This document shows positions 6,553 to 40,017 of a stretch of DNA of 64,000 nt, one piece after another. The notes under the pieces were generated by a model. That model saw nothing but the letters and a program-made list of their open reading frames with translations. It ran no database searches and was not told the DNA's origin. This DNA comes from Heligmosomoides polygyrus polygyrus. Taxonomy: Eukaryota > Nematoda > Chromadorea > Rhabditida > Heligmosomidae. The first letter of the stretch is position 1; every line of letters begins with the position of its first letter. Made by a program: the position numbers and the translations under genes. The stretch is from contig OX377201.1 of NCBI GenBank assembly GCA_947396885.1, forward strand, positions 28,249,923-28,313,922, given 5' to 3'.

Positions 6553-6656
6553 GTGAGCAGAATTGGGGAAGAACTCGAGCAACGCAGGGTGTTCTTCGCC
6601 AGCCGGGCAAACAACAGACGTGCATGTTCGAATTCAGGGCTTCCGAGCGTCTCGTT

Positions 6657-6728
6657 GGCCGGATGGTCTAGGGGTATGATTCTCGCTTCGGGTGCGAGAG
6701 GTCCCGGGTTCGAATCCCGGTTCGGCCC
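6657..6728 (+). tRNA. tRNA-Pro(CGG), first copy and reference for the array
   Basis: Decodes the proline codon CCG. Seen: acceptor GGCCGGA pairs with TTCGGCC with one G-T; the anticodon stem is CTCGC/GCGAG around the loop TTCGGGT, giving anticodon CGG at positions 34-36. The T arm is CCGGG-TTCGAAT-CCCGG and the discriminator base is C. The A box TGGTCTAGGGG and B box GGTTCGAATCC match Pol III internal promoter consensus. No intron and no encoded CCA are present. A TTTT stretch at 6,733-6,736 can end transcription. The body is fully canonical, so it is predicted to be functional. Confidence 0.95.
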
Positions 6729-6732
6729 AATG

Positions 6733-6736
6733 TTTT
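6733..6736 (+). terminator. RNA polymerase III terminator (T4) of the repeat unit
   Basis: A minimal run of four T, four bases after the tRNA, flanked by G on both sides. It recurs at tRNA start +76 in full-length units. It is the only TTTT in a standard unit, so units that lose it have no local stop. The allele AATCTTTTGCGG keeps T4; the allele AATGTTCTGCGG destroys it. Confidence 0.8.
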
Positions 6737-6866
6737 GCGGGTGACCCATCACCGTCCTCTCGCGGCGCTCTTGTCGAGGCGGCCTCGAGCAACGCAAGGT
6801 GTTCTTCGCCAGCCGGGCAAACAACAGACGTGCATGTTCGAATTCAGGGCTTCCGAACGTCTCGTT

Positions 6867-8618
6867 GGCCGGATGGTCTAGGGGTATGATTCTCGCTTCG
6901 GGTGCGAGAGGTCCCGGGTTCGAATCCCGGTTCGGCCCAATGTTTTGCGGGTGACCCACAACCGTCCTGCCGCGGCGCTATTGTCGAGGCGGCCTCGAGC
7001 AACGCAAGGTGTTCTTCGCCAGCCGGGCAAACAACAGACGTGCATGTTCGAATTCAGGGCTTCCGAGCGTCTCGTTGGCCGGATGGTCTAGGGGTATGAT
7101 TCTCGCTTCGGGTGCGAGAGGTCCCGGGTTCGAATCCCGGTTCGGCCCAATGTTTTGCGGGTGACCCACAACCGTCCTGCCGCGGCGCTATTGTCGAGGC
7201 GGCCTCGAGCAACGCAAGGTGTTCTTCGCCAGCCGGGCAAACAACAGACGTGCATGTTCGAATTCAGGGCTTCCGAGCGTCTCGTTGGCCGGATGGTCTA
7301 GGGGTATGATTCTCGCTTCGGGTGCGAGAGGTCCCGGGTTCGAATCCCGGTTCGGCCCAATGTTTTGCGGGTGACCCACAACCGTCCTGCCGCGGCGCTC
7401 TTGTCGAGGCGGCCTCGAGCAACGCAAGGTGTTCTCCACCAGCCGGGCAAACAACAGACGTGCATGTTCGAATACAGGGCTTCCGAGCGTCTCGTTGGCC
7501 GGATGGTCTAGGGGTATGATTCTCGCTTCGGGTGCGAGAGGTCCCGGGTTCGAATCCCGGTTCGGCCCAATGTTTTGCGGGTGACCCACAACCGTCCTGC
7601 CGCGGCGCTCTTGTCGAGGCGGCCTCGAGCAACGCAAGGTGTTCTCCACCAGCCGGGCAAACAACAGACGTGCATGTTCGAATACAGGGCTTCCGAGCGT
7701 CTCGTTGGCCGGATGGTCTAGGGGTATGATTCTCGCTTCGGGTGCTAGAGGTCCCGGGTTCGAATCCCGGTTCGGCCCAATGTTTTGCGGGTGACCCACA
7801 ACCGTCCTGCCGCGGCGCTCTTGTCGAGGCGGCCTCGAGCAACGCAAGGTGTTCTCCACCAGCCGGGCAAACAACAGACGTGCATGTTCGAATTCAGGGC
7901 TTCCGAGCGTCTCGTTGGCCGGATGGTCTAGGGGTATGATTCTCGCTTCGGGTGCGAGAGGTCCCGGGTTCGAATCCCGGTTCGGCCCAATGTTTTGCGG
8001 GTGACCCACAACCGTCCTGCCGCGGCGCTCTTGTCGAGGCGGCCTCGAGCAACGCAAGGTGTTCTTCGCCAGCCGGGCAAACAACAGACGTGCATGTTCG
8101 AATACAGGGCTTCCGAGCGTCTCGTTGGCCGGATGGTCTAGGGGTATGATTCTCGCTTCGGGTGCGAGAGGTCCCGGGTTCGAATCCCGGTTCGGCCCAA
8201 TGTTTTGCGGGTGACCCACAACCGTCCTGCCGCGGCGCTCTTGTCGAGGCGGCCTCGAGCAACGCAAGGTGTTCTTCGCCAGCCGGGCAAACAACAGACG
8301 TGCATGTTCGAATACAGGGCTTCCGAGCGTCTCGTTGGCCGGATGGTCTAGGGGTATGATTCTCGCTTCGGGTGCGAGAGGTCCCGGGTTCGAATCCCGG
8401 TTCGGCCCAATGTTTTGCGGGTGACCCACAACCGTCCTGCCGCGGCGCTCTTGTCGAGGCGGCCTCGAGCAACGCAAGGTGTTCTCCGCCAGCCGGGCAA
8501 ACAACAGACGTGCATGTTCGAATACAGGGCTTCCGAGCGTCTCGTTGGCCGGATGGTCTAGGGGTATGATTCTCGCTTCGGGTGCGAGAGGTCCCGGGTT
8601 CGAATCCCGGTTCGGCCC
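6867..8618 (+). tRNA. tRNA-Pro(CGG) block, 9 copies
   Basis: 72-nt genes start at 6867, 7077, 7287, 7497, 7707, 7917, 8127, 8337 and 8547. The copy at 7707 has G to T in the 3' side of the anticodon stem (GCTAG), breaking one pair. The others match the reference tRNA body. Confidence 0.95.
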
Positions 8619-8958
8619 AATGTTTTGCGGGTGACCCACAACCGTCCTGCCGCGGCGCTATTGTCGAGGCGGCCTCGAGCAACGCAAGGTGTTCTTCGCC
8701 AGCCGGGCAAACAACAGACGTGCATGTTCGAATTCAGGGCTTCCGAGCGTCTCGTTGGCCGGATGGTCTAGGGGTATGATTCTCTGCGTGAGGTCCCGGG
8801 TTCGAATCCCGGTTCGGCCCAATGTTTTGCGGGTGACCCACAACCGTCCTGCCGCGGCGCTCTTGTCGAGGCGGCCTCGAGCAACGCAAGGTGTTCTCCG
8901 CCAGCCGGGCAAACAACAGACGTGCATGTTCGAATACAGGGCTTCCGAGCGTCTCGTT

Positions 8959-11760
8959 GGCCGGATGGTCTAGGGGTATGATTCTCGCTTCGGGTGCGAG
9001 AGGTCCCGGGTTCGAATCCCGGTTCGGCCCAATGTTTTGCGGGTGACCCACAACCGTCCTGCCGCGGCGCTATTGTCGAGGCGGCCTCGAGCAACGCAAG
9101 GTGTTCTTCGCCAGCCGGGCAAACAACAGACGTGCATGTTCGAATACAGGGCTTCCGAGCGTCTCGTTGGCCGGATGGTCTAGGGGTATGATTCTCGCTT
9201 CGGGTGCGAGAGGTCCCGGGTTCGAATCCCGGTTCGGCCCAATGTTTTGCGGGTGACCCACAACCGTCCTGCCGCGGCGCTCTTGTCGAGGCGGCCTCGA
9301 GCAACGCAAGGTGTTCTTCGCCAGCCGGGCAAACAACAGACGTGCATGTTCGAATACAGGGCTTCCGAGCGTCTCGTTGGCCGGATGGTCTAGGGGTATG
9401 ATTCTCGCTTCGGGTGCGAGAGGTCCCGGGTTCGAATCCCGGTTCGGCCCAATGTTTTGCGGGTGACCCACAACCGTCCTGCCGCGGCGCTCTTGTCGAG
9501 GCGGCCTCGAGCAACGCAAGGTGTTCTTCGCCAGCCGGGCAAACAACAGACGTGCATGTTCGAATTCAGGGCTTCCGAGCGTCTCGTTGGCCGGATGGTC
9601 TAGGGGTATGATTCTCGCTTCGGGTGCGAGAGGTCCCGGGTTCGAATCCCGGTTCGGCCCAATGTTTTGCGGGTGACCCACAACCGTCCTGCCGCGGCGC
9701 TCTTGTCGAGGCGGCCTCGAGCAACGCAAGGTGTTCTTCGCCAGCCGGGCAAACAACAGACGTGCATGTTCGAATACAGGGCTTCCGAGCGTCTCGTTGG
9801 CTGGATGGTCTAGGGGTATGATTCTCGCTTCGGGTGCGAGAGGTCCCGGGTTCGAATCCCGGTTCGGCCCAATGTTTTGCGGGTGACCCACAACCGTCCT
9901 GCCGCGGCGCTCTTGTCGAGGCGGCCTCGAGCAACGCAAGGTGTTCTCCGCCAGCCGGGCAAACAACAGACGTGCATGTTCGAATACAGGGCTTCCGAGC
10001 GTCTCGTTGGCCGGATGGTCTAGGGGTATGATTCTCGCTTCGGGTGCGAGAGGTCCCGGGTTCGAATCCCGGTTCGGCCCAATGTTTTGCGGGTGACCCA
10101 CAACCGTCCTGCCGCGGCGCTATTGTCGAGGCGGCCTCGAGCAACGCAAGGTGTTCTTCGCCAGCCGGGCAAACAACAGACGTGCATGTTCGAATACAGG
10201 GCTTCCGAGCGTCTCGTTGGCCGGATGGTCTAGGGGTATGATTCTCGCTTCGGGTGCGAGAGGTCCCGGGTTCGAATCCCGGTTCGGCCCAATGTTTTGC
10301 GGGTGACCCACAACCGTCCTGCCGCGGCGCTCTTGTCGAGGCGGCCTCGAGCAACGCAAGGTGTTCTTCGCCAGCCGGGCAAACAACAGACGTGCATGTT
10401 CGAATACAGGGCTTCCGAGCGTCTCGTTGGCCGGATGGTCTAGGGGTATGATTCTCGCTTCGGGTGCGAGAGGTCCCGGGTTCGAATCCCGGTTCGGCCC
10501 AATGTTTTGCGGGTGACCCACAACCGTCCTGCCGCGGCGCTCTTGTCGAGGCGGCCTCGAGCAACGCAAGGTGTTCTTCGCCAGCCGGGCAAACAACAGA
10601 CGTGCATGTTCGAATTCAGGGCTTCCGAGCGTCTCGTTGGCCGGATGGTCTAGGGGTATGATTCTCGCTTCGGGTGCGAGAGGTCCCGGGTTCGAATCCC
10701 GGTTCGGCCCAATGTTTTGCGGGTGACCCACAACCGTCCTGCCGCGGCGCTCTTGTCGAGGCGGCCTCGAGCAACGCAAGGTGTTCTTCGCCAGCCGGGC
10801 AAACAACAGACGTGCATGTTCGAATACAGGGCTTCCGAGCGTCTCGTTGGCTGGATGGTCTAGGGGTATGATTCTCGCTTCGGGTGCGAGAGGTCCCGGG
10901 TTCGAATCCCGGTTCGGCCCAATGTTTTGCGGGTGACCCACAACCGTCCTGCCGCGGCGCTCTTGTCGAGGCGGCCTCGAGCAACGCAAGGTGTTCTTCG
11001 CCAGCCGGGCAAACAACAGACGTGCATGTTCGAATACAGGGCTTCCGAGCGTCTCGTTGGCCGGATGGTCTAGGGGTATGATTCTCGCTTCGGGTGCGAG
11101 AGGTCCCGGGTTCGAATCCCGGTTCGGCCCAATGTTTTGCGGGTGACCCACAACCGTCCTGCCGCGGCGCTCTTGTCGAGGCGGCCTCGAGCAACGCAAG
11201 GTGTTCTCCGCCAGCCGGGCAAACAACAGACGTGCATGTTCGAATACAGGGCTTCCGAGCGTCTCGTTGGCCGGATGGTCTAGGGGTATGATTCTCGCTT
11301 CGGGTGCGAGAGGTCCCGGGTTCGAATCCCGGTTCGGCCCAATGTTCTGCGGGTGACCCACAACCGTCCTGCCGCGGCGCTCTTCTCGAGGCGGCCTCGA
11401 GCAACGCAAGGTGTTCTTCGCCAGCCGGGCAAACAACAGACGTGCATGTTCGAATTCAGGGCTTCCGAGCGTCTCGTTGGCCGGATGGTCTAGGGGTATG
11501 ATTCTCGCTTCGGGTGCGAGAGGTCCCGGGTTCGAATCCCGGTTCGGCCCAATGTTTTGCGGGTGACCCACAACCGTCCTGCCGCGGCGCTCTTGTCGAG
11601 GCGGCCTCGAGCAACGCAAGGTGTTCTCCGCCAGCCGGGCAAACAACAGACGTGCATGTTCGAATACAGGGCTTCCGAGCGTCTCGTTGGCCGGATGGTC
11701 TAGGGGTATGATTCTCGCTTCGGGTGCGGGAGGTCCCGGGTTCGAATCCCGGTTCGGCCC
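8959..11760 (+). tRNA. tRNA-Pro(CGG) block, 14 copies
   Basis: Starts run every 210 bp from 8959 to 11689. Copies at 9799 and 10849 carry C3 to T, keeping a G-T pair in the acceptor. The copy at 11689 has GCGGG instead of GCGAG in the anticodon stem. The copy at 11269 is followed by TTCT instead of TTTT and so lacks the usual terminator. Confidence 0.95.
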
Positions 11761-12100
11761 AATGTTTTGCGGGTGACCCACAACCGTCCTGCCGCGGCGC
11801 TCTTGTCGAGGCGGCCTCGAGCAACGCAAGGTGTTCTTCGCCAGCCGGGCAAACAACAGACGTGCATGTTCGAATTCAGGGCTTCCGAGCGTCTCGTTGG
11901 CCGGATGGTCTAGGGGTATGATTCTCTGCGAGAGGTCCCGGGTTCGAATCCCGGTTCGGCCCAATGTTTTGCGGGTGACCCACAACCGTCCTGCCGCGGC
12001 GCTATTGTCGAGGCGGCCTCGAGCAACGCAAGGTGTTCTTCGCCAGCCGGGCAAACAACAGACGTGCATGTTCGAATACAGGGCTTCCGAGCGTCTCGTT

Positions 12101-14482
12101 GGCCGGATGGTCTAGGGGTATGATTCTCGCTTCGGGTGCGAGAGGTCCCGGGTTCGAATCCCGGTTCGGCCCAATGTTTTGCGGGTGACCCACAACCGTC
12201 CTGCCGCGGCGCTCTTGTCGAGGCGGCCTCGAGCAACGCAAGGTGTTCTTCGCCAGCCGGGCAAACAACAGACGTGCATGTTCGAATACAGGGCTTCCGA
12301 GCGTCTCGTTGGCCGGATGGTCTAGGGGTATGATTCTCGCTTCGGGTGCGAGAGGTCCCGGGTTCGAATCCCGGTTCGGCCCAATGTTTTGCGGGTGACC
12401 CACAACCGTCCTGCCGCGGCGCTCTTGTCGAGGCGGCCTCGAGCAACGCAAGGTGTTCTTCGCCAGCCGGGCAAACAACAGACGTGCATGTTCGAATTCA
12501 GGGCTTCCGAGCGTCTCGTTGGCCGGATGGTCTAGGGGTATGATTCTCGCTTCGGGTGCGAGAGGTCCCGGGTTCGAATCCCGGTTCGGCCCAATGTTTT
12601 GCGGGTGACCCACAACCGTCCTGCCGCGGCGCTCTTGTCGAGGCGGCCTCGAGCAACGCAAGGTGTTCTTCGCCAGCCGGGCAAACAACAGACGTGCATG
12701 TTCGAATACAGGGCTTCCGAGCGTCTCGTTGGCTGGATGGTCTAGGGGTATGATTCTCGCTTCGGGTGCGAGAGGTCCCGGGTTCGAATCCCGGTTCGGC
12801 CCAATGTTTTGCGGGTGACCCACAACCGTCCTGCCGCGGCGCTCTTGTCGAGGCGGCCTCGAGCAACGCAAGGTGTTCTCCGCCAGCCGGGCAAACAACA
12901 GACGTGCATGTTCGAATACAGGGCTTCCGAGCGTCTCGTTGGCCGGATGGTCTAGGGGTATGATTCTCGCTTCGGGTGCGAGAGGTCCCGGGTTCGAATC
13001 CCGGTTCGGCCCAATGTTTTGCGGGTGACCCACAACCGTCCTGCCGCGGCGCTATTGTCGAGGCGGCCTCGAGCAACGCAAGGTGTTCTTCGCCAGCCGG
13101 GCAAACAACAGACGTGCATGTTCGAATACAGGGCTTCCGAGCGTCTCGTTGGCCGGATGGTCTAGGGGTATGATTCTCGCTTCGGGTGCGAGAGGTCCCG
13201 GGTTCGAATCCCGGTTCGGCCCAATGTTTTGCGGGTGACCCACAACCGTCCTGCCGCGGCGCTCTTGTCGAGGCGGCCTCGAGCAACGCAAGGTGTTCTT
13301 CGCCAGCCGGGCAAACAACAGACGTGCATGTTCGAATACAGGGCTTCCGAGCGTCTCGTTGGCCGGATGGTCTAGGGGTATGATTCTCGCTTCGGGTGCG
13401 AGAGGTCCCGGGTTCGAATCCCGGTTCGGCCCAATGTTTTGCGGGTGACCCACAACCGTCCTGCCGCGGCGCTCTTGTCGAGGCGGCCTCGAGCAACGCA
13501 AGGTGTTCTTCGCCAGCCGGGCAAACAACAGACGTGCATGTTCGAATTCAGGGCTTCCGAGCGTCTCGTTGGCCGGATGGTCTAGGGGTATGATTCTCGC
13601 TTCGGGTGCGAGAGGTCCCGGGTTCGAATCCCGGTTCGGCCCAATGTTTTGCGGGTGACCCACAACCGTCCTGCCGCGGCGCTCTTGTCGAGGCGGCCTC
13701 GAGCAACGCAAGGTGTTCTTCGCCAGCCGGGCAAACAACAGACGTGCATGTTCGAATACAGGGCTTCCGAGCGTCTCGTTGGCCGGATGGTCTAGGGGTA
13801 TGATTCTCGCTTCGGGTGCGAGAGGTCCCGGGTTCGAATCCCGGTTCGGCCCAATGTTTTGCGGGTGACCCACAACCGTCCTGCCGCGGCGCTCTTGTCG
13901 AGGCGGCCTCGAGCAACGCAAGGTGTTCTCCGCCAGCCGGGCAAACAACAGACGTGCATGTTCGAATACAGGGCTTCCGAGCGTCTCGTTGGCCGGATGG
14001 TCTAGGGGTATGATTCTCGCTTCGGGTGCGAGAGGTCCCGGGTTCGAATCCCGGTTCGGCCCAATGTTCTGCGGGTGACCCACAACCGTCCTGCCGCGGC
14101 GCTCTTGTCGAGGCGGCCTCGAGCAACGCAAGGTGTTCTTCGCCAGCCGGGCAAACAACAGACGTGCATGTTCGAATTCAGGGCTTCCGAGCGTCTCGTT
14201 GGCCGGATGGTCTAGGGGTATGATTCTCGCTTCGGGTGCGAGAGGTCCCGGGTTCGAATCCCGGTTCGGCCCAATGTTTTGCGGGTGACCCACAACCGTC
14301 CTGCCGCGGCGCTCTTGTCGAGGCGGCCTCGAGCAACGCAAGGTGTTCTCCGCCAGCCGGGCAAACAACAGACGTGCATGTTCGAATACAGGGCTTCCGA
14401 GCGTCTCGTTGGCCGGATGGTCTAGGGGTATGATTCTCGCTTCGGGTGCGAGAGGTCCCGGGTTCGAATCCCGGTTCGGCCC
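12101..14482 (+). tRNA. tRNA-Pro(CGG) block, 12 copies
   Basis: Starts run every 210 bp from 12101 to 14411. The block repeats the previous one at an offset of 2,932 bp with the same spacer alleles and the same C3 to T copy (12731). The copy at 13991 has the TTCT terminator loss, matching 11269 in the previous block. Confidence 0.95.
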
Positions 14483-14822
14483 AATGTTTTGCGGGTGACC
14501 CACAACCGTCCTGCCGCGGCGCTCTTGTCGAGGCGGCCTCGAGCAACGCAAGGTGTTCTTCGCCAGCCGGGCAAACAACAGACGTGCATGTTCGAATTCA
14601 GGGCTTCCGAGCGTCTCGTTGGCCGGATGGTCTAGGGGTATGATTCTCTGCGAGAGGTCCCGGGTTCGAATCCCGGTTCGGCCCAATGTTTTGCGGGTGA
14701 CCCACAACCGTCCTGCCGCGGCGCTCTTGTCGAGGCGGCCTCGAGCAACGCAAGGTGTTCTCCGCCAGCCGGGCAAACAACAGACGTGCATGTTCGAATA
14801 CAGGGCTTCCGAGCGTCTCGTT

Positions 14823-16534
14823 GGCCGGATGGTCTAGGGGTATGATTCTCGCTTCGGGTGCGAGAGGTCCCGGGTTCGAATCCCGGTTCGGCCCAATGTT
14901 TTGCGGGTGACCCACAACCGTCCTGCCGCGGCGCTCTTGTCGAGGCGGCCTCGAGCAACGCAAGGTGTTCTTCGCCAGCCGGGCAAACAACAGACGTGCA
15001 TGTTCGAATTCAGGGCTTCCGAGCGTCTCGTTGGCCGGATGGTCTAGGGGTATGATTCTCTGCGAGAGGTCCCGGGTTCGAATCCCGGTTCGGCCCAATG
15101 TTTTGCGGGTGACCCACAACCGTCCTGCCGCGGCGCTATTGTCGAGGCGGCCTCGAGCAACGCAAGGTGTTCTCCGCCAGCCGGGCAAACAACAGACGTG
15201 CATGTTCGAATTCAGGGCTTCCGAGCGTCTCGTTGGCCGGATGGTCTAGGGGTATGATTCTCGCTTCGGGTGCGAGAGGTCCCGGGTTCGAATCCCGGTT
15301 CGGCCCAATGTTTTGCGGGTGACCCACAACCGTCCCGCCGCGGCGCTCTTGCAACGCAAGGTGTTCTTCGCCAGCCGGGCAAACAACAGACGTGCATGTT
15401 CGAATACAGGGCTTCCGAGCGTCTCGTTGGCCGGATGGTCTAGGGGTATGATTCTCGCTTCGGGTGCGAGAGGTCCCGGGTTCGAATCCCGGTTCGGCCC
15501 AATCTTTTGCGGGTGACCCACAACCGTCCTGCCGCGGCGCTATTGTCGAGGCGGCCTCGAGCAACGCAAGGTGTTCTCCGCCAGCCGGGCAAACAACAGA
15601 CGTGCATGTTCGAATACAGGGCTTCCGAGCGTCTCGTTGGCCGGATGGTCTAGGGGTATGATTCTCGCTTCGGGTGCGAGAGGTCCCGGGTTCGAATCCC
15701 GGTTCGGCCCAATGTTTTGCGGGTGACCCACAACCGTCCTGCCGCGGCGCTCTTGTCGAGGCGGCCTCGAGCAACGCAAGGTGTTCTCCGCCAACCGGGC
15801 AAACAACAGACGTGCATGTTCGAATACAGGGCTTCCGAGCGTCTCGTTGGCCGGATGGTCTAGGGGTGTGATTCTCGCTTCGGGTGCGAGAGGTCCCGGG
15901 TTCGAATCCCGGTTCGGCCCAATGTTTTGCGGGTGACCCACAACCGTCCCGCCGCGGCGCTCTTGCAACGCAAGGTGTTCTTCGCCAGCCGGGCAAACAA
16001 CAGACGTGCATGTTCGAATACAGGGCTTCCGAGCGTCTCGTTGGCCGGATGGTCTAGGGGTATGATTCTCGCTTCGGGTGCGAGAGGTCCCGGGTTCGAA
16101 TCCCGGTTCGGCCCAATCTTTTGCGGGTGACCCACAACCGTCCTGCCGCGGCGCTCTTGTCGAGGCGGCCTCGAGCAACGCAAGGTGTTCTTCGCCAGCC
16201 GGGCAAACAACAGACGTGCATGTTCGAATTCAGGGCTTCCGAGCGTCTCGTTGGCCGGATGGTCTAGGGGTATGATTCTCGCTTCGGGTGCGAGAGGTCC
16301 CGGGTTCGAATCCCGGTTCGGCCCAATGTTTTGCGGGTGACCCACAACCGTCCTGCCGCGGCGCTCTTGTCGAGGCGGCCTCGAGCAACGCAAGGTGTTC
16401 TCCGCCAGCCGGGCAAACAACAGACGTGCATGTTCGAATACAGGGCTTCCGAGCGTCTCGTTGGCCGGATGGTCTAGGGGTGTGATTCTCGCTTCGGGTG
16501 CGAGAGGTCCCGGGTTCGAATCCCGGTTCGGCCC
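14823..16534 (+). tRNA. tRNA-Pro(CGG) block, 8 copies with irregular spacing
   Basis: 72-nt genes start at 14823, 15235, 15429, 15639, 15849, 16043, 16253 and 16463. The irregular steps come from spacers lacking the 16-bp palindrome (after 15235, 15849 and 16463). Copies 15849 and 16463 have A21 to G, the conserved D-loop/core adenosine, which may weaken the fold. Confidence 0.93.
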
Positions 16535-16865
16535 AATGTTTTGCGGGTGACCCACAACCGTCCCGCCGCGGCGCTCTTGCAACGCAAGGTGTTCTTCGCC
16601 AGCCGGGCAAACAACAGACGTGCATGTTCGAATACAGGGCTTCCGAGCGTCTCGTTGGCCGGATGGTCTGGGGTATGATTCTCGCTTCGGGTGCGAGAGG
16701 TCCCGGGTTCGAATCCCGGTTCGGCCCAATCTTTTGCGGGTGACCCACAACCGTCCTGCCGCGGCGCTCTTGTCGAGGCGGCCTCGAGCAACGCAAGGTG
16801 TTCTTCGCCAGCCGGGCAAACAACAGACGTGCATGTTCGAATTCAGGGCTTCCGAGCGTCTCGTT

Positions 16866-19651: not shown

Positions 19652-19991
19652 AATGTTTTGCGGGTGACCCACAACCGTCCTGCCGCGGCGCTCTTGTCGA
19701 GGCGGCCTCGAGCAACGCAAGGTGTTCTTCGCCAGCCGGGCAAACAACAGACGTGCATGTTCGAATTCAGGGCTTCCGAGCGTCTCGTTGGCCGGATGGT
19801 CTAGGGGTATGATTCTCTGCGAGAGGTCCCGGGTTCGAATCCCGGTTCGGCCCAATGTTTTGCGGGTGACCCACAACCGTCCTGCCGCGGCGCTATTGTC
19901 GAGGCGGCCTCGAGCAACGCAAGGTGTTCTCCGCCAGCCGGGCAAACAACAGACGTGCATGTTCGAATACAGGGCTTCCGAGCGTCTCGTT

Positions 19992-22130: not shown

Positions 22131-22470
22131 AATGTTTTGCGGGTGACCCACAACCGTCCTGCCGCGGCGCTCTTGTCGAGGCGGCCTCGAGCAACGCAAG
22201 GTGTTCTTCGCCAGCCGGGCAAACAACAGACGTGCATGTTCGAATTCAGGGCTTCCGAGCGTCTCGTTGGCCGGATGGTCTAGGGGTATGATTCTCTGCG
22301 AGAGGTCCCGGGTTCGAATCCCGGTTCGGCCCAATGTTTTGCGGGTGACCCACAACCGTCCTGCCGCGGCGCTATTGTCGAGGCGGCCTCGAGCAACGCA
22401 AGGTGTTCTCCGCCAGCCGGGCAAACAACAGACGTGCATGTTCGAATACAGGGCTTCCGAGCGTCTCGTT

Positions 22471-25239: not shown

Positions 25240-25579
25240 AATGTTTTGCGGGTGACCCACAACCGTCCTGCCGCGGCGCTCTTGTCGAGGCGGCCTCGAG
25301 CAACGCAAGGTGTTCTTCGCCAGCCGGGCAAACAACAGACGTGCATGTTCGAATTCAGGGCTTCCGAGCGTCTCGTTGGCCGGATGGTCTAGGGGTATGA
25401 TTCTCTGCGAGAGGTCCCGGGTTCGAATCCCGGTTCGGCCCAATGTTTTGCGGGTGACCCAAAACCGTCCTGCCGCGGCGCTATTGTCGAGGCGGCCTCG
25501 AGCAACGCAAGGTGTTCTCCGCCAGCCGGGCAAACAACAGACGTGCATGTTCGAATACAGGGCTTCCGAGCGTCTCGTT

Positions 25580-28500: not shown

Positions 28501-29818
28501 ATGGTCTAGGGGTATGATTCTCGCTTCGGGTGCGAGAGGTCCCGGGTTCGAATCCCGGTTCGGCCCAATGTTTTGCGGGTGACCCACAACCGTCCTGCCG
28601 CGGCGCTCTTGTCGAGGCGGCCTCGAGCAACGCAAGGTGTTCTCTGCCAGCCGGGCAAACAACAGACGTGCATGTTCGAATACAGGGCTTCCGAGCGTCT
28701 CGTTGGCCGGATGGTCTAGGGGTATGATTCTCTGCGAGAGGTCCCGGGTTCGAATCCCGGTTCGGCCCAATGTTTTGCGGGTGACCCACAACCGTCCTGC
28801 CGCGGCGCTATTGTCGAGGCGGCCTCGAGCAACGCAAGGTGTTCTTCGCCAGCCGGGCAAACAACAGACGTGCATGTTCGAATTCAGGGCTTCCGAGCGT
28901 CTCGTTGGCCGGATGGTCTAGGGGTATGATTCTCGCTTCGGGTGCGAGAGGTCCCGGGTTCGAATCCCGGTTCGGCCCAATGTTTTGCGGGTGACCCACA
29001 ACCGTCCTGCCGCGGCGCTATTGTCGAGGCGGCCTCGAGCAACGCAAGGTGTTCTTCGCCAGCCGGGCAAACAACAGACGTGCATGTTCGAATACAGGGC
29101 TTCCGACCGTCTCGTTGGCCGGATGGTCTAGGGGTATGATTCTCGCTTCGGGTGCGAGAGGTCCCGGGTTCGAATCCCGGTTCGGCCCAATGTTTTGCGG
29201 GTGACCCACAACCGTCCTGCCGCGGCGCTCTTGTCGAGGCGGCCTCGAGCAACGCAAGGTGTTCTCCGCCAGCCGGGCAAACAACAGACGTGCATGTTCG
29301 AATACAGGGCTTCCGAGCGTCTCGTTGGCCGGATGGTCTAGGGGTATGATTCTCGCTTCGGGTGCGAGAGGTCCCGGGTTCGAATCCCGGTTCGGCCCAA
29401 TGTTTTGCGGGTGACCCACAACCGTCCTGCCGCGGCGCTCTTGTCGAGGCGGCCTCGAGCAACGCAAGGTGTTCTTCGCCAGCCGGGCAAACAACAGACG
29501 TGCATGTTCGAATTCAGGGCTTCCGAGCGTCTCGTTGGCCGGATGGTCTAGGGGTATGATTCTCGCTTCGGGTGCGAGAGGTCCCGGGTTCGAATCCCGG
29601 TTCGGCCCAATGTTTTGCGGGTGACCCACAACCGTCCTGCCGCGGCGCTCTTGTCGAGGCGGCCTCGAGCAACGCAAGGTGTTCTCCGCCAGCCGGGCAA
29701 ACAACAGACGTGCATGTTCGAATACAGGGCTTCCGAGCGTCTCGTTGGCCGGATGGTCTAGGGGTATGATTCTCGCTTCGGGTGCGAGAGGTCCCGGGTT
29801 CGAATCCCGGTTCGGCCC
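25580..29818 (+). tRNA. tRNA-Pro(CGG) block, 16 copies
   Basis: 72-nt genes start at 25580, 25790, 26202, 26412, 26622, 26832, 27042, 27252, 27664, 27874, 28495, 28907, 29117, 29327, 29537 and 29747. Ten-unit segments repeat at 2,084 bp. The variant pattern at 23,085-23,769 recurs here at an offset of 4,999 bp. Confidence 0.93.
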
Positions 29819-30158
29819 AATGTTTTGCGGGTGACCCACAACCGTCCTGCCGCGGCGCTCTTGTCGAGGCGGCCTCGAGCAACGCAAGGTGTTCTTCGCC
29901 AGCCGGGCAAACAACAGACGTGCATGTTCGAATTCAGGGCTTCCGAGCGTCTCGTTGGCCGGATGGTCTAGGGGTATGATTCTCTGCGAGAGGTCCCGGG
30001 TTCGAATCCCGGTTCGGCCCAATGTTTTGCGGGTGACCCACAACCGTCCTGCCGCGGCGCTATTGTCGAGGCGGCCTCGAGCAACGCAAGGTGTTCTCCG
30101 CCAGCCGGGCAAACAACAGACGTGCATGTTCGAATACAGGGCTTCCGAGCGTCTCGTT

Positions 30159-33100
30159 GGCCGGATGGTCTAGGGGTATGATTCTCGCTTCGGGTGCGAG
30201 AGGTCCCGGGTTCGAATCCCGGTTCGGCCCAATGTTTTGCGGGTGACCCACAACCGTCCCGCCGCGGCGCTCTTGCAACGCAAGGTGTTCTTCGCCAGCC
30301 GGGCAAACAACAGACGTGCATGTTCGAATACAGGGCTTCCGAGCGTCTCGTTGGCCGGATGGTCTAGGGGTATGATTCTCGCTTCGGGTGCGAGAGGTCC
30401 CGGGTTCGAATCCCGGTTCGGCCCAATCTTTTGCGGGTGACCCACAACCGTCCTGCCGCGGCGCTATTGTCGAGGCGGCCTCGAGCAACGCAAGGTGTTC
30501 TCCGCCAGCCGGGCAAACAACAGACGTGCATGTTCGAATACAGGGCTTCCGAGCGTCTCGTTGGCCGGATGGTCTAGGGGTATGATTCTCGCTTCGGGTG
30601 CGAGAGGTCCCGGGTTCGAATCCCGGTTCGGCCCAATGTTTTGCGGGTGACCCACAACCGTCCTGCCGCGGCGCTCTTGTCGAGGCGGCCTCGAGCAACG
30701 CAAGGTGTTCTCTGCCAGCCGGGCAAACAACAGACGTGCATGTTCGAATACAGGGCTTCCGACCGTCTCGTTGGCCGGATGGTCTAGGGGTATGATTCTC
30801 GCTTCGGGTGCGAGAGGTCCCGGGTTCGAATCCCGGTTCGGCCCAATGTTTTGCGGGTGACCCACAACCGTCCTGCCGCGGCGCTCTTGTCGAGGCGGCC
30901 TCGAGCAACGCAAGGTGTTCTCTGCCAGCCGGGCAAACAACAGACGTGCATGTTCGAATACAGGGCTTCCGAGCGTCTCGTTGGCCGGATGGTCTAGGGG
31001 TATGATTCTCGCTTCGGGTGCGAGAGGTCCCGGGTTCGAATCCCGGTTCGGCCCAATGTTTTGCGGGTGACCCACAACCGTCCTGCCGCGGCGCTCTTGT
31101 CGAGGCGGCCTCGAGCAACGCAAGGTGTTCTCCGCCAGCCGGGCAAACAACAGACGTGCATGTTCGAATACAGGGCTTCCGAGCGTCTCGTTGGCCGGAT
31201 GGTCTAGGGGTATGATTCTCGCTTCGGGTGCGAGAGGTCCCGGGTTCGAATCCCGGTTCGGCCCAATGTTTTGCGGGTGACCCACAACCGTCCTGCCGCG
31301 GCGCTCTTGTCGAGGCGGCCTCGAGCAACGCAAGGTGTTCTCCGCCAGCCGGGCAAACAACAGACGTGCATGTTCGAATTCAGGGCTTCCGAGCGTCTCG
31401 TTGGCCGGATGGTCTAGGGGTATGATTCTCGCTTCGGGTGCGAGAGGTCCCGGGTTCGAATCCCGGTTCGGCCCAATGTTTTGCGGGTGACCCACAACCG
31501 TCCTGCCGCGGCGCTATTGTCGAGGCGGCCTCGAGCAACGCAAGGTGTTCTTCGCCAGCCGGGCAAACAACAGACGTGCATGTTCGAATACAGGGCTTCC
31601 GACCGTCTCGTTGGCCGGATGGTCTAGGGGTATGATTCTCGCTTCGGGTGCGAGAGGTCCCGGGTTCGAATCCCGGTTCGGCCCAATGTTTTGCGGGTGA
31701 CCCACAACCGTCCTGCCGCGGCGCTCTTGTCGAGGCGGCCTCGAGCAACGCAAGGTGTTCTCCGCCAGCCGGGCAAACAACAGACGTGCATGTTCGAATA
31801 CAGGGCTTCCGAGCGTCTCGTTGGCCGGATGGTCTAGGGGTATGATTCTCGCTTCGGGTGCGAGAGGTCCCGGGTTCGAATCCCGGTTCGGCCCAATGTT
31901 TTGCGGGTGACCCACAACCGTCCTGCCGCGGCGCTCTTGTCGAGGCGGCCTCGAGCAACGCAAGGTGTTCTTCGCCAGCCGGGCAAACAACAGACGTGCA
32001 TGTTCGAATTCAGGGCTTCCGAGCGTCTCGTTGGCCGGATGGTCTAGGGGTATGATTCTCGCTTCGGGTGCGAGAGGTCCCGGGTTCGAATCCCGGTTCG
32101 GCCCAATGTTTTGCGGGTGACCCACAACCGTCCTGCCGCGGCGCTCTTGTCGAGGCGGCCTCGAGCAACGCAAGGTGTTCTCCGCCAGCCGGGCAAACAA
32201 CAGACGTGCATGTTCGAATACAGGGCTTCCGAGCGTCTCGTTGGCCGGATGGTCTAGGGGTATGATTCTCGCTTCGGGTGCGAGAGGTCCCGGGTTCGAA
32301 TCCCGGTTCGGCCCAATGTTTTGCGGGTGACCCACAACCGTCCTGCCGCGGCGCTCTTGTCGAGGCGGCCTCGAGCAACGCAAGGTGTTCTTCGCCAGCC
32401 GGGCAAACAACAGACGTGCATGTTCGAATTCAGGGCTTCCGAGCGTCTCGTTGGCCGGATGGTCTAGGGGTATGATTCTCTGCGAGAGGTCCCGGGTTCG
32501 AATCCCGGTTCGGCCCAATGTTTTGCGGGTGACCCACAACCGTCCTGCCGCGGCGCTATTGTCGAGGCGGCCTCGAGCAACGCAAGGTGTTCTCCGCCAG
32601 CCGGGCAAACAACAGACGTGCATGTTCGAATACAGGGCTTCCGAGCGTCTCGTTGGCCGGATGGTCTAGGGGTATGATTCTCGCTTCGGGTGCGAGAGGT
32701 CCCGGGTTCGAATCCCGGTTCGGCCCAATGTTTTGCGGGTGACCCACAACCGTCCCGCCGCGGCGCTCTTGCAACGCAAGGTGTTCTTCGCCAGCCGGGC
32801 AAACAACAGACGTGCATGTTCGAATACAGGGCTTCCGAGCGTCTCGTTGGCCGGATGGTCTAGGGGTATGATTCTCGCTTCGGGTGCGAGAGGTCCCGGG
32901 TTCGAATCCCGGTTCGGCCCAATCTTTTGCGGGTGACCCACAACCGTCCTGCCGCGGCGCTATTGTCGAGGCGGCCTCGAGCAACGCAAGGTGTTCTCCG
33001 CCAGCCGGGCAAACAACAGACGTGCATGTTCGAATACAGGGCTTCCGAGCGTCTCGTTGGCCGGATGGTCTAGGGGTATGATTCTCGCTTCGGGTGCGAG

Positions 33101-33751
33101 AGGTCCCGGGTTCGAATCCCGGTTCGGCCCAATGTTTTGCGGGTGACCCACAACCGTCCTGCCGCGGCGCTCTTGTCGAGGCGGCCTCGAGCAACGCAAG
33201 GTGTTCTCTGCCAGCCGGGCAAACAACAGACGTGCATGTTCGAATACAGGGCTTCCGAGCGTCTCGTTGGCCGGATGGTCTAGGGGTATGATTCTCTGCG
33301 AGAGGTCCCGGGTTCGAATCCCGGTTCGGCCCAATGTTTTGCGGGTGACCCACAACCGTCCTGCCGCGGCGCTATTGTCGAGGCGGCCTCGAGCAACGCA
33401 AGGTGTTCTTCGCCAGCCGGGCAAACAACAGACGTGCATGTTCGAATTCAGGGCTTCCGAGCGTCTCGTTGGCCGGATGGTCTGGGGTATGATTCTCGCT
33501 TCGGGTGCGAGAGGTCCCGGGTTCGAATCCCGGTTCGGCCCAATGTTTTGCGGGTGACCCACAACCGTCCTGCCGCGGCGCTATTGTCGAGGCGGCCTCG
33601 AGCAACGCAAGGTGTTCTTCGCCAGCCGGGCAAACAACAGACGTGCATGTTCGAATACAGGGCTTCCGACCGTCTCGTTGGCCGGATGGTCTAGGGGTAT
33701 GATTCTCGCTTCGGGTGCGAGAGGTCCCGGGTTCGAATCCCGGTTCGGCCC
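30159..33751 (+). tRNA. tRNA-Pro(CGG) block, 15 copies
   Basis: 72-nt genes start at 30159, every 210 bp from 30353 to 32243, and at 32655, 32849, 33059 and 33680. Spacers after 30159 and 32655 lack the 16-bp palindrome. The two shortened spacers are 2,496 bp apart, equal to 12 units minus one 8-bp and one 16-bp deletion. Confidence 0.93.
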
Positions 33752-34091
33752 AATGTTTTGCGGGTGACCCACAACCGTCCTGCCGCGGCGCTCTTGTCGA
33801 GGCGGCCTCGAGCAACGCAAGGTGTTCTCTGCCAGCCGGGCAAACAACAGACGTGCATGTTCGAATACAGGGCTTCCGAGCGTCTCGTTGGCCGGATGGT
33901 CTAGGGGTATGATTCTCTGCGAGAGGTCCCGGGTTCGAATCCCGGTTCGGCCCAATGTTTTGCGGGTGACCCACAACCGTCCTGCCGCGGCGCTATTGTC
34001 GAGGCGGCCTCGAGCAACGCAAGGTGTTCTTCGCCAGCCGGGCAAACAACAGACGTGCATGTTCGAATTCAGGGCTTCCGAGCGTCTCGTT

Positions 34092-37000
34092 GGCCGGATG
34101 GTCTAGGGGTATGATTCTCGCTTCGGGTGCGAGAGGTCCCGGGTTCGAATCCCGGTTCGGCCCAATCTTTTGCGGGTGACCCACAACCGTCCTGCCGCGG
34201 CGCTATTGTCGAGGCGGCCTCGAGCAACGCAAGGTGTTCTCCGCCAGCCGGGCAAACAACAGACGTGCATGTTCGAATACAGGGCTTCCGAGCGTCTCGT
34301 TGGCCGGATGGTCTAGGGGTATGATTCTCGCTTCGGGTGCGAGAGGTCCCGGGTTCGAATCCCGGTTCGGCCCAATGTTTTGCGGGTGACCCACAACCGT
34401 CCTGCCGCGGCGCTCTTGTCGAGGCGGCCTCGAGCAACGCAAGGTGTTCTCCGCCAGCCGGGCAAACAACAGACGTGCATGTTCGAATACAGGGCTTCCG
34501 AGCGTCTCGTTGGCCGGATGGTCTAGGGGTATGATTCTCGCTTCGGGTGCGAGAGGTCCCGGGTTCGAATCCCGGTTCGGCCCAATGTTTTGCGGGTGAC
34601 CCACAACCGTCCTGCCGTGGCGCTCTTGTCGAGTCGGCCTCGAGCAACGCAAGGTGTTCTTCGCCAGCCGGGCAAACAACAGACGTGCATGTTCGAATTC
34701 AGGGGTTCCGAGCGTCTCGTTGGCCGGATGGTCTAGGGGTATGATTCTCGCTTCGGGTGCGAGAGGTCCCGGGTTCGAATCCCGGTTCGGCCCAATGTTT
34801 TGCGGGTGACCCACAACCGTCCTGCCGCGGCGCTCTTGTCGAGGCGGCCTCGAGCAACGCAAGGTGTTCTTCGCCAGCCGGGCAAACAACAGACGTGCAT
34901 GTTCGAATTCAGGGGTTCCGAGCGTCTCGTTGGCCGGATGGTCTAGGGGTATGATTCTCGCTTCGGGTGCGAGAGGTCCCGGGTTCGAATCCCGGTTCGG
35001 CCCAATGTTTTGCGGGTGACCCACAACCGTCCTGCCGTGGCGCTCTTGTCGAGTCGGCCTCGAGCAACGCAAGGTGTTCTTCGCCAGCCGGGCAAACAAC
35101 AGACGTGCATGTTCGAATACAGGGCTTCCGAGCGTCTCGTTGGCCGGATGGTCTAGGGGTATGATTCTCGCTTCGGGTGCGAGAGGTCCCGGGTTCGAAT
35201 CCCGGTTCGGCCCAATGTTTTGCGGGTGACCCACAACCGTCCTGCCGCGGCGCTCTTGTCGAGGCGGCCTCGAGCAACGCAAGGTGTTCTTCGCCAGCCG
35301 GGCAAACAACAGACGTGCATGTTCGAATACAGGGCTTCCGAGCGTCTCGTTGGCCGGATGGTCTAGGGGTATGATTCTCGCTTCGGGTGCGAGAGGTCCC
35401 GGGTTCGAATCCCGGTTCGGCCCAATGTTTTGCGGGTGACCCACAACCGTCCTGCCGCGGCGCTCTTGTCGAGGCGGCCTCGAGCAACGCAAGGTGTTCT
35501 TCGCCAGCCGGGCAAACAACAGACGTGCATGTTCGAATACAGGGCTTCCGAGCGTCTCGTTGGCCGGATGGTCTAGGGGTATGATTCTCGCTTCGGGTGC
35601 GAGAGGTCCCGGGTTCGAATCCCGGTTCGGCCCAATGTTTTGCGGGTGACCCACAACCGTCCTGCCGCGGCGCTATTGTCGAGGCGGCCTTGAGCAACGC
35701 AAGGTGTTCTCCGCCAGCCGGGCAAACAACAGACGTGCATGTTCGAATACAGGGCTTCCGAGCGTCTCGTTGGCCGGATGGTCTAGGGGTATGATTCTCG
35801 CTTCGGGTGCGAGAGGTCCCGGGTTCGAATCCCGGTTCGGCCCAATGTTTTGCGGGTGACCCACAACCGTCCTGCCGCGGCGCTATTGTCGAGGCGGCCT
35901 CGAGCAACGCAAGGTGTTCTTCGCCAGCCGGGCAAACAACAGACGTGCATGTTCGAATACAGGGCTTCCGAGCTTCTCGTTGGCCGGATGGTCTAGGGGT
36001 ATGATTCTCGCTTCGGGTGCGAGAGGTCCCGGGTTCGAATCCCGGTTCGGCCCAATGTTTTGCGGGTGACCCACAACCGTCCTGCCGCGGCGCTATTGTC
36101 GAGGCGGCCTCGAGCAACGCAAGGTGTTCTTCGCCAGCCGGGCAAACAACAGACGTGCATGTTCGAATTCAGGGCTTCCTAGCGTCTCGTTGGCCGGATG
36201 GTCTAGGGGTATGATTCTCGCTTCGGGTGCGAGAGGTCCCGGGTTCGAATCCCGGTTCGGCCCAATGTTTTGCGGGTGACCCACAACCGTCCTGCCGCGG
36301 CGCTCTTGTCGAGGCGGCCTCGAGCAACGCAAGGTGTTCTTCGCCAGCCGGGCAAACAACAGACGTGCATGTTCGAATACAGGGCTTCCGAGCGTCTCGT
36401 TGGCCGGATGGTCTAGGGGTATGATTCTCGCTTCGGGTGCGAGAGGTCCCGGGTTCGAATCCCGGTTCGGCCCAATGTTTTGCGGGTGACCCACAACCGT
36501 CCTGCCGCGGCGCTCTTGTCGAGGCGGCCTCGAGCAACGCAAGGTGTTCTCCGCCAGCCGGGCAAACAACAGACGTGCATGTTCGAATACAGGGCTTCCG
36601 AGCGTCTCGTTGGCCGGATGGTCTAGGGGTATGATTCTCGCTTCGGGTGCGAGAGGTCCCGGGTTCGAATCCCGGTTCGGCCCAATGTTTTGCGGGTGAC
36701 CCACAACCGTCCTGCCGCGGCGCTATTGTCGAGGCGGCCTCGAGCAACGCAAGGTGTTCTTCGCCAGCCGGGCAAACAACAGACGTGCATGTTCGAATAC
36801 AGGGCTTCCGAGCGTCTCGTTGGCCGGATGGTCTAGGGGTATGATTCTCGCTTCGGGTGCGAGAGGTCCCGGGTTCGAATCCCGGTTCGGCCCAATGTTT
36901 TGCGGGTGACCCACAACCGTCCTGCCGCGGCGCTCTTGTCGAGGCGGCCTCGAGCAACGCAAGGTGTTCTTCGCCAGCCGGGCAAACAACAGACGTGCAT

Positions 37001-39413
37001 GTTCGAATTCAGGGCTTCCGAGCGTCTCGTTGGCCGGATGGTCTAGGGGTATGATTCTCGCTTCGGCTGCGAGAGGTCCCGGGTTCGAATCCCGGTTCGG
37101 CCCAATGTTTTGGGGGTGACCCACAACCGTCCTGCCGCGGCGCTATTGTCGAGGCGGCCTCGAGCAACGCAAGGTGTTCTTCGCCAGCCGGGCAAACAAC
37201 AGACGTGCATGTTCGAATACAGGGCTTCCGCGCGTCTCGTTGGCCGGATGGTCTAGGGGTATGATTCTCGCTTCGGGTGCGAGAGGTCCCGGGTTCGAAT
37301 CCCGGTTCGGCCCAATGTTTTGCGGGTGACCCACAACCGTCCTGCCGCGGCGCTCTTGTCGAGGCGGCCTCGAGCAACGCAAGGTGTTCTCCGCCAGCCG
37401 GGCAAACAACAGACGTGCATGTTCGAATACAGGGCTTCCGAGCGTCTCGTTGGCCGGATGGTCTAGGGGTATGATTCTCGCTTCGGGTGCGAGAGGTCCC
37501 GGGTTCGAATCCCGGTTCGGCCCAATGTTTTGCGGGTGACCCACAACCGTCCTGCCGCGGCGCTCTTGTCGAGGCGGCCTCGAGCAACGCAAGGTGTTCT
37601 TCGCCAGCCGGGCAAACAACAGACGTGCATGTTCGAATACAGGGCTTCCGAGCGTCTCGTTGGCCGGATGGTCTATGGGTATGATTCTCGCTTCGGGTGC
37701 GAGAGGTCCCGGGTTCGAATCCCGGTTCGGCCCAATGTTTTGCGGGTGACCCACAACCGTCCTGCCGCGGCGCTCTTGTCGAGGCGGCCTCGAGCAATGC
37801 AAGGTGTTCTCCGCCAGCCGGGCAAACAACAGACGTGCATGTTCGAATACAGGGCTTCCGAGCGTCTCGTTGGCCGGATGGTCTATGGGTATGATTCTCG
37901 CTTCGGGTGCGAGAGGTCCCGGGTTCGAATCCCGGTTCGGCCCAATGTTTTGCGGGTGACCCACAACCGTCCTGCCGCGGCGCTATTGTCGAGGCGGCCT
38001 CGAGCAACGCAAGGTGTTCTTCGCCAGCCGGGCAAACAACAGACGTGCATGTTCGAATACAGGGCTTCCGAGCGTCTCGTTGGCCGGATGGTCTAGGGGT
38101 ATGATTCTCGCTTCGGGTGCGAGAGGTCCCGGGTTCGAATCCCGGTTCGGCCCAATGTTTTGCGGGTGACCCACAACCGTCCTGCCGCGGCGCTATTGTC
38201 GAGGCGGCCTCGAGCAACGCAAGGTGTTCTTCGCCAGCCGGGCAAACAACAGACGTGCATGTTCGAATTCAGGGCTTCCGAGCGTCTCGTTGGCCGGATG
38301 GTCTAGGGGTATGATTCTCGCTTCGGGTTCGAGAGGTCCCGGGTTCGAATCCCGGTTCGGCCCAATGTTTTGCGGGTGACCCACAACCGTCCTGCCGCGG
38401 CGCTATTGTCGAGGCGGCCTCGAGCAACGCAAGGTGTTCTTCGCCAGCCGGGCAAACAACAGACGTGCATGTTCGAATTCAGGGCTTCCGAGCGTCTCGT
38501 TGGCCGGATGATCTAGGGGTATGATTCTCGCTTCGGGTGCGAGAGGTCCCGGGTTCGAATCCCGGTTCGGCCCAAAGTTTTGCGGGTGACCCACAACCGT
38601 CCTGCCGCGGCGCTCTTGTCGAGGCGGCCTCGAGCAACGCAAGGTGTTCTTCGCCAGCCGGGCAAACAACAGACGTGCATGTTCGAATACAGGGCTTCCG
38701 AGCGTCTCGTTGGCCGGATGGTCTAGGGGTATGATTCTCGCTTCGGGTGCGAGAGGTCCCGGGTTCGAATCCCGGTTCGGCCCAATGTTTTGCGGGTGAC
38801 CCACAACCGTCCTGCCGCGGCGCTCTTGTCGAGGCGGCCTCGAGCAACGCAAGGTGTTCTTCGCCAGCCGGGCAAACAACAGACGTGCATGTTCGAATTC
38901 AGGGCTTCCGAGCGTCTCGTTGGCCGGATGGTCTAGGGGTATGATTCTCGCTTCGGGTGCGAGAGGTCCCGGGTTCGAATCCCGGTTCGGCCCAAAGTTT
39001 TGCGGGTGACCCACAACCGTCCTGCCGCGGCGCTCTTGTCGAGGCGGCCTCGAGCAACGCAAGGTGTTCTTCGCCAGCCGGGCAAACAACAGACGTGCAT
39101 GTTCGAATACAGGGCTTCCGAGCGTCTCGTTGGCCGCATGGTCTAGGGGTATGATTCTCGCTTCGGGTGCGAGAGGTCCCGGGTTCGAATCCCGGTTCGG
39201 CCCAAAGTTTTGCGGGTGACCCACAACCGTCCTGCCGCGGCGCTCTTGTCGAGGCGGCCTCGAGCAACGCAAGGTGTTCTTCGCCAGCCGGGCAAACAAC
39301 AGACGTGCATGTTCGAATACAGGGCTTCCGAGCGTCTCGTTGGCCGCATGGTCTAGGGGTATGATTCTCGCTTCGGGTGCGAGAGGTCCCGGGTTCGAAT
39401 CCCGGTTCGGCCC
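34092..39413 (+). tRNA. tRNA-Pro(CGG) block, 26 copies ending the array
   Basis: Starts run every 210 bp from 34092 to 39342 without length variants. Substitutions in the tRNA body cluster at the right end: 37032 (G37 to C in the anticodon loop), 37662 and 37872 (G15 to T), 38292 (anticodon stem), 38502 (G10 to A), 39132 and 39342 (G6 to C in the acceptor). Several late spacers also read CCCAAAG for CCCAATG. This is the pattern expected where unequal exchange homogenises the edge of an array poorly. Confidence 0.93.
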
Positions 39414-39421
39414 AATGTTTT

Positions 39422-39426
39422 GCGGG
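39422..39426. other. target site duplication GCGGG, left side of the LTR element
   Basis: These five bases follow the TTTT terminator of the last tRNA (39,418-39,421). They recur directly after the right LTR at 44,874-44,878, where the spacer sequence resumes. Confidence 0.9.
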
Positions 39427-40017
39427 TGTTTGGACTGCATCAAGGTCCAATACGGTTTTGGTGGTTCAAAGCTATGACTCTTGTTCGATCATATTTATTG
39501 TGCAAGTGGTACATGTGCGGCTAAGGAAGAGAATAGGTGATAGAGCGTTTAGTCTTGGTTAGTTCCTTCTTGTAGTCTTAGTCTTTCTTGAGTCTTGATG
39601 GCCAGTCGGCCTAGTTCTTGTGGCTCTGACAGGCCGGAGTGGGATCGTCCTGTAGGACGCCCCCTCCTCTGTTTCGGCCTCGGAGGCCACGGCAGTCCTT
39701 GCTGCGGGCCTCGGCGACCGGGATGGTACTTGTTGAGCGAGCCTCGTCGGCGGCTCTCTTGAGTTCTTGAGACGGCAAGATGGCGGCGGCGGAGGCGACG
39801 GTGGCGACGGTTGAGGCCGGAGCTGGAGCTGGAGAGCTGCTGCGAGACGAGACGAGACTGCCCTCTGCCCGGAGGAGGCTGCTTATATACGTTTTCCGGG
39901 GGGCGGGCAGTGTGGCGGCAGTGGCCTGTTGGGGGCGGGCCGCTTTACACGGCAGGCCGGCTCTTGAGCCGAGTATTGATTGAAGTATCATGATTCCGTT
40001 GTACGGAAGTCATGACA
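39427..40017 (+). repeat. left LTR (591 bp)
   Basis: It opens with a small hairpin, TTGGAC...GTCCAA, and closes with another, TCATGATTCCGT...ACGGAAGTCATGA. It differs from the right LTR by one substitution near its start (CCAATACGG versus CCAACACGG) and by lacking 11 bp (TCATGCCGGCC). It contains a purine-rich CGGAG/GGCGGCGG segment and an AAGATGGCGGC motif near 39,777. Confidence 0.9.
39884..39889 (+). promoter_or_regulatory. TATA box of the left LTR
   Basis: TATATA in a GC-rich context (CTGCTTATATACG), 458 bases into the LTR and about 130 bases before its end. This is a plausible Pol II start for U3-R-U5. The same box occurs in the right LTR at 44,729-44,734. Confidence 0.5.

Follow-up and report, generated by a model that had tools for sequence, protein, structure and literature searches.

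The number of genes that a genome devotes to each tRNA is often taken as tuned to codon demand. Among the described systems closest to the locus analysed here, Entamoeba histolytica carries 25 array units of up to five tRNA genes each, which make up more than 10% of its genome and whose copy number is unlinked to codon usage (PMC2652664). Plants carry shorter clusters, such as 25-27 tRNA-Pro genes in Arabidopsis and 28 tRNA-Ile genes in maize, and the largest clusters in a 50-plant survey have 26 genes where all copies are identical and 110 under a looser, non-identical definition (PMC12652284, PMC11700998). Methylation and repression are reported for the Arabidopsis clusters (Hummel et al. 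2020, as cited in PMC11700998). Among animals, thousands of zebrafish tRNA genes lie in repetitive clusters on the long arm of chromosome 4 (PMC11417395, PMC2888827), and tRNA-like genes are put at about 20,000 in zebrafish and more than 17,000 in Nematostella, mostly as mixed pairs (PMC2888827). A different source of high counts is the Helenus and Ajax LTR elements, whose tRNA or 5S sequence inflates predicted tRNA numbers, tRNA-Pro included; the same work notes tandem arrays for one such family (PMC10886601). A search of the open-licence literature turned up no account of animal one-isoacceptor arrays of the size described below. The words tRNA and satellite are absent from the main text of the Heligmosomoides polygyrus assembly paper (PMC10682056), as is the word tRNA from that of a nematode chromosome review (PMC9071541).

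Here we describe a bona fide metazoan tRNA-Pro(CGG) gene array from this nematode, which is one of several giant one-isoacceptor arrays in its genome. With a probability of roughly 0.57, we read it as a tRNA-gene satellite: a Pro(CGG) gene that was amplified and homogenised, and one of a set of independently amplified arrays, each of a single isoacceptor.

The tRNA-Pro(CGG) array

The window, by which we mean the whole stretch of 64,000 nucleotides that was analysed, is free of non-ACGT letters, and the array it contains is therefore free of N. Run over the whole window, TRF delimits a tandem array at 6574-39428 with periods of 210 and 420; combined with ARAGORN, Rfam and a B-box count, this places the array at 6574..39426 on the + strand. 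The unit, mostly 210 bp long, consists of one 72 bp tRNA gene and 138 bp of spacer, and the units run head to tail. A count of B boxes that tolerates one variant base yields 158 units, the number present in the assembly, in agreement with the 158 copies of the earlier note; ARAGORN and Rfam each accept 139 as tRNA genes. ARAGORN finds 139 tRNA-Pro(CGG) in the window, every one on the + strand with anticodon CGG in a cloverleaf, and Rfam RF00005 returns 139 matches of 44.6-53.9 bits against a cut-off of 29. The 157 distances from one B box to the next measure 210 bp in 126 cases, 202 in 19, 194 in seven, 209 in four and 193 in one; such regular spacing is not a chance product.

The first tRNA-Pro(CGG) of the array (6657..6728, +; ARAGORN, Rfam) has the commonest body, and is followed by a spacer (6729..6866, +) that separates it from gene 2 and begins with AATGTTTTGCGGG, which includes a Pol III terminator. 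The last lies at 39342..39413 (+; ARAGORN, Rfam). At gathering cut-offs, the 139 tRNA matches are all that Rfam returns for the window, leaving no second RNA in the unit. The one spacer tested folds no better than its shuffles, and the tRNA itself is likewise unremarkable (z -0.31). A protein meaning of the long open reading frames was rejected: they are reads through the repeat with one spurious Pfam match below cut-off, and comparable protein predictions from other animals resemble tRNA-Pro read in reverse. The array patterns tried had 0 matches in viral and bacterial contig collections.

Intact and defective units

The suggestion that nearly all copies are intact proved too generous: the A-box consensus, the TTCGGGT anticodon loop, the B-box consensus and the T4 terminator are all present in 127 of the 158 units. 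The anticodon-loop sequence is absent from 20 units, 19 via a common 8-nt deletion and one via substitution; six units fail the A-box consensus, and five have TTCT in place of TTTT. Through the anticodon deletion, 19 of the 158 drop out of the tRNA family, the first being the 64-nt body at 8757..8820 (+). This null allele sits on two main spacer backgrounds, which indicates that a null copy has been passed on within the array. Judged by structure, most units nevertheless look like intact genes. Their promoter boxes, correct tRNA body and TTTTGC terminator suggest that the majority are probably transcribable.

The main rival to the satellite reading is a tuned dosage array, comparable to the oocyte 5S RNA genes, in which arrays would be selected for tRNA supply at times of high demand, egg production for example, and would be regulated as blocks. 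That most units are structurally intact (127 of 158) and identical to dispersed genes is what such a role would call for; null copies that are common and have spread are not. We regard this possibility as tentative and, on the present evidence, rather unlikely. The B box raises a further alternative, in which the array would be a set of TFIIIC sites with a structural or chromatin-boundary role. It is present in all 158 units with dense, regular spacing, a tally that is biased because the B box served as the unit finder. A role that uses the B box only needs no further part of the tRNA, yet the tRNA body is identical in 116 of the 158 units, and we consider a boundary function improbable.

Homogenisation and diversity

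Alignment of the 157 pieces between B boxes, with the leading part of the first unit left out, resolves 55 haplotypes of the unit, which occur in mixed order. Stretches of 8 identical units reappear 12, 14 and 61 units further on, and an offset of 49 gives a match of 13 units, none of which differs by more than one event; under 200 shuffles of unit order the longest identical run was 4. The array is homogenised in blocks. Recurring blocks are the expected trace of unequal exchange or block duplication, and from them we infer unequal exchange as the mechanism.

Exact recurrence of blocks of up to 8 units could also be produced if the assembly had expanded a true array that is much smaller. In keeping with that explanation, the assembly paper describes an assembly made from single worms, with PCR duplicates removed from the HiFi reads, a contig N50 of 291.5 kb and 3460 gaps (PMC10682056). 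It is opposed by the mixed order of the 55 haplotypes, by the absence of N from the window and by the presence of several unrelated tRNA arrays on different chromosomes. A much smaller true array is highly improbable; the exact unit number, 158, may still be off.

Per-site diversity in the 157 aligned units is 0.0039 for the tRNA versus 0.0168 for the spacer, a gap with a permutation p of 0.036 that 12 of 210 circular shifts reach or exceed. Variable sites are equally dense in the two parts (13/72 in the tRNA, 29/138 in the spacer; Fisher p=0.72), a point that counts against tuned dosage. We read these figures as a sign of weak selection, at most, on the tRNA inside the array. A longer view is afforded by a single diverged, near-full unit about 2.6 Mb away from the array, from which the array differs at 1 of 72 tRNA sites and 14 of 136 spacer sites (p=0.02). 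The lower divergence of the tRNA suggests that its body has been conserved over longer times.

tRNA-Pro(CGG) genes elsewhere in the genome

The assembly searched comprises 656,174,362 bases, and holds the exact 39-base CGG core 138 times on the + strand and five times on the - strand. Of these 143 cores 135 lie inside the window array, a majority that supports the earlier suggestion of one array supplying most tRNA-Pro(CGG) genes of the genome. Among nine dispersed CGG genes read, six carry the array's commonest body with other flanks. Since they share that body, the array multiplies the species' standard tRNA-Pro(CGG).

These genome-wide counts also bear on whether the unit might be a tRNA-derived mobile element, a SINE or a Helenus-type LTR element, in tandem. 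Elements of this kind do raise tRNA counts, and one of them is reported to form tandem arrays (PMC10886601). Here, a 27-mer of the spacer occurs 154 times in the genome, with all 154 occurrences in the window array; elsewhere there is just the one diverged near-full unit, and the units are direct and head to tail. Many dispersed copies with element ends, as expected of a SINE or Helenus-type element, were not found, and we give this explanation hardly any weight.

Array edges and flanking sequence

Self-comparison of the window reveals no similarity between the left flank and the array unit. The right edge is more intricate. The earlier note had ended the array at 39426, and its units do reach that position; what it had not taken into account is an LTR insertion that splits the last unit, 25 bp of which continue at 44874..44898 (+). 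The element (39427..44873, no strand assigned) lies inside this unit directly after TTTTGCGGG. Its LTRs, at 39427-40017 and 44272-44873, have TG...CA ends, and a target duplication, GCGGG, is found at 39422-39426 and 44874-44878. Across 602 aligned columns the LTR pair shows one mismatch and 11 columns with gaps, a near-identity that makes the insertion look recent. Its internal part has no open reading frame of 130 aa or more. The element sits directly behind a Pol III terminator; some yeast and Dictyostelium elements prefer tRNA genes. An inverted 24-bp copy of the leftover unit piece follows at 44902..44925 (-), such that the unit piece and its inverted copy form a near-perfect short palindrome (44868-44930) at the right array edge.

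Further to the right, a large self-inverted repeat with arms 85% identical (45111-46195) is perhaps a foldback element. On the minus strand at 53225-53674, an open reading frame or GPCR exon matches the Srsx chemoreceptor family, which is a nematode family. Two RTE-type LINE copies in opposite orientation (54449-56928 and 61262-63750) are 97% identical, and an RTE-type reverse transcriptase reading frame in the flank has its matches in strongylids, among them Heligmosomoides, Necator and Haemonchus, with 53-86% identity among the best 120 of 1808 matches. Between 39000 and 64000, Rfam at permissive settings finds two microRNA matches, both far below their cut-offs; a MIR533 match at 58077-58245 scores 45.7 bits, below the cut-off of 80.

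Other one-gene arrays

The Pro(CGG) array does not stand alone. Further one-gene arrays exist for tRNA-Pro(TGG), Lys(TTT), Glu(CTC) and Thr(AGT), together with a sixth array, and the counts given for them are lower bounds. At least five isoacceptors are arrayed, and dispersed genes also exist for Pro CGG, TGG and AGG. One tRNA per unit is the rule in the Pro(CGG), Pro(TGG), Lys, Glu and Thr arrays. Tandem pairs of pyrimidine-type B boxes were also sought, in two spacing ranges. The patterns used produced 2230, 557 and 204 matches genome-wide, the 557 set being in effect a subset of the 2230 set, versus 0 for each backward control; array isotypes were assigned among the 100 places listed for each pattern, a minority of the matches.

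The tRNA-Pro(TGG) array, of 240-bp units, lies on C1 at about 27.06-27.16 Mb. Parts of this region read as N; in the part that was read, at least 178 genes were called, 6-7 in every 8 of them labelled Pro(TGG) and the remainder being 71-nt forms with the label tRNA-???; the standard loop is found in 150 copies and a loop short of one T in 30. Exact Pro(TGG) cores number 247 genome-wide, and all 100 places listed fall in this array. Diversity, taken over 163 units whose bounding B boxes are readable and lie 225-260 bp from each other, is 0.0132 in the tRNA versus 0.0206 in the spacer. The T arms of tRNA-Pro(TGG) and tRNA-Pro(AGG), GGTTTCGATCACC and GGGATCGATCCCC, deviate from the usual B-box consensus in the dispersed genes of both and, for TGG, also in the array. 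A Pro(TGG) pattern built with the CGG T arm accordingly had 0 matches, because tRNA-Pro(TGG) has another T arm. Several dispersed tRNA-Pro(TGG) genes form divergent minus/plus pairs about 200 bp apart, and tRNA-Pro(AGG) has a small run of five genes.

The tRNA-Lys(TTT) array, of 196-bp units, lies on C39, where 62 of the 63 scored RF00005 matches, which came from 79,215 candidates, fall at 54.279-54.672 Mb. Its 37-base core occurs 1310 times genome-wide, all on one strand; the listed places, a minority, comprise single ones on C1 and C27, with the rest on C39 from 54.216 Mb. TRF finds about 50 units in each of two 10-kb samples. tRNA calls numbered 50 in the first, 46 Lys and four labelled Stop(tta), and 34 in the second, all Lys. 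A 7-nt insertion occurs in 10 of 50 and 13 of 45 aligned units of the two samples, and units with this D-arm insertion, labelled Stop(tta) by ARAGORN, are seen in L037 at 1660-2147 and 4824-4905. With tRNA limits set some three bases too wide, and 50 of 50 and 45 of 47 intervals used in the two 10-kb samples, diversity in tRNA versus spacer is 0.0149 versus 0.0339 in one and 0.0183 versus 0.0189 in the other.

The remaining arrays were sampled more briefly. The tRNA-Glu(CTC) array, of 189-bp units, begins on C1 at 7.173 Mb, with similar matches up to 7.217 Mb and 14 genes in the 5 kb read; by eye, its left end adjoins sequence resembling the end of a LINE reverse transcriptase (L039, 2000-2310). 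The tRNA-Thr(AGT) array, of 191-bp units, starts on C1 at 79.002 Mb, with 15 genes in the 3 kb read. The sixth array, on C52 from 89.838 Mb, has 248-bp units and 82 of the 100 listed matches of its pattern; its unit ends in what we take to be a Gly tRNA-like sequence, a candidate isotype. On C39 at 72438334-72462377, B-box-like sites spaced by 289 bp form nine pairs, which recur every 1.0-6.2 kb and perhaps mark a further repeated tRNA cluster whose unit is longer.

Comparison of one plus-strand unit from each of five arrays reveals no similarity between their spacers, and these unrelated spacers suggest that the amplifications were independent. All five have TTTTGC after the tRNA. A common spacer motif acting as an amplification signal was considered and rejected, nothing being shared in this comparison beyond the TTTTGC terminators.

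A proposed tRNA-gene satellite

The proposed history would begin with one ordinary tRNA-Pro(CGG) gene and about 138 bp of flank, amplified head to tail into 158 units. Unequal exchange or gene conversion would then have kept the array similar and reshuffled it in blocks of several units, while arrays of different isoacceptors would have been amplified independently in the same genome. Most units would remain transcribable, each single copy would be close to dispensable, and defective units would be tolerated. The array is long and head to tail with near-identical units, as a satellite is. Tandem amplification on several occasions, unrelated spacers, and null copies that are tolerated and spread together amount to satellite-like behaviour, in which the repeated thing is a gene. 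Defective loops have spread in the Pro(CGG) and Pro(TGG) arrays, and the 7-nt insertion has done so in the Lys array. Among the three alternatives listed in the earlier note, namely a selfish satellite, codon demand and a boundary, the selfish satellite fits best; arrays of Pro(TGG), Lys(TTT), Glu(CTC) and Thr(AGT) weaken any explanation via CCG codons alone.

Lower diversity of the tRNA than of the spacer in the Pro(CGG) and Pro(TGG) arrays, and in one of the two Lys samples, counts against the satellite reading and, together with the lower divergence, would be compatible with dosage under selection. As a separate candidate, strong purifying selection that acts on each copy is unsupported by the Pro(CGG), Pro(TGG) and Lys diversities and the spread null copies. 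That several isoacceptors were amplified is likewise congruent with dosage, and the recurrence of arrays across them could also reflect selection. Exact core numbers, however, are about ninefold apart between CGG and Lys TTT, which counts against a tuned supply. A more doubtful extension is that a large part of the nuclear tRNA gene set lies in satellites that are each specific to one isoacceptor and number from hundreds to more than a thousand copies; these would be reservoirs switchable for egg production, and the body would rely on the dispersed copies. By analogy, the arrays may either provide extra tRNA or be mostly silent, as precedent exists for both outcomes.

The 143 Pro-CGG, 247 Pro-TGG and 1310 Lys-TTT core copies offer a natural test of the codon-demand idea, and testing is practical in H. 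polygyrus, a common laboratory model. The questions are whether tRNA levels follow from gene copy number, whether genes transcribed by Pol III can act as selfish satellites, and how arrays of genes cope with null copies. A warning also follows for annotation, as tRNA counts in nematode assemblies may be array-dominated.

Comparison with known systems

Entamoeba resembles this genome in having long tandem tRNA arrays, several types per genome, and homogenised copies; nearly all of its tRNA genes are arrayed (PMC2652664), and here at least five isoacceptors are, with dispersed copies outside the arrays. E. histolytica has multi-gene units with short tandem repeats between the genes, whereas the present units, found in an animal, hold a single gene and a plain spacer; the multi-gene type of unit, with as many as five different tRNAs, was not found here. 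For Entamoeba no clear pseudogene copies are noted (PMC2652664), as against 19 null copies in 158 here. Helenus and Ajax elements differ in another respect: the spacer word of the present unit stays within a single array, and no LTR is seen in the unit. The plant clusters are likewise tandem runs of one isoacceptor, often tRNA-Pro (PMC12652284, PMC11700998); in the 50-plant survey, identical-copy clusters reach 26 genes, whereas 158 regular units stand here in one array, with more in others. The zebrafish clusters set a precedent, among animals, for a role in the egg (PMC11417395, PMC2888827). Adjacent pairs there are mostly of different isoacceptors (PMC2888827), whereas each array of this nematode is given over to one.
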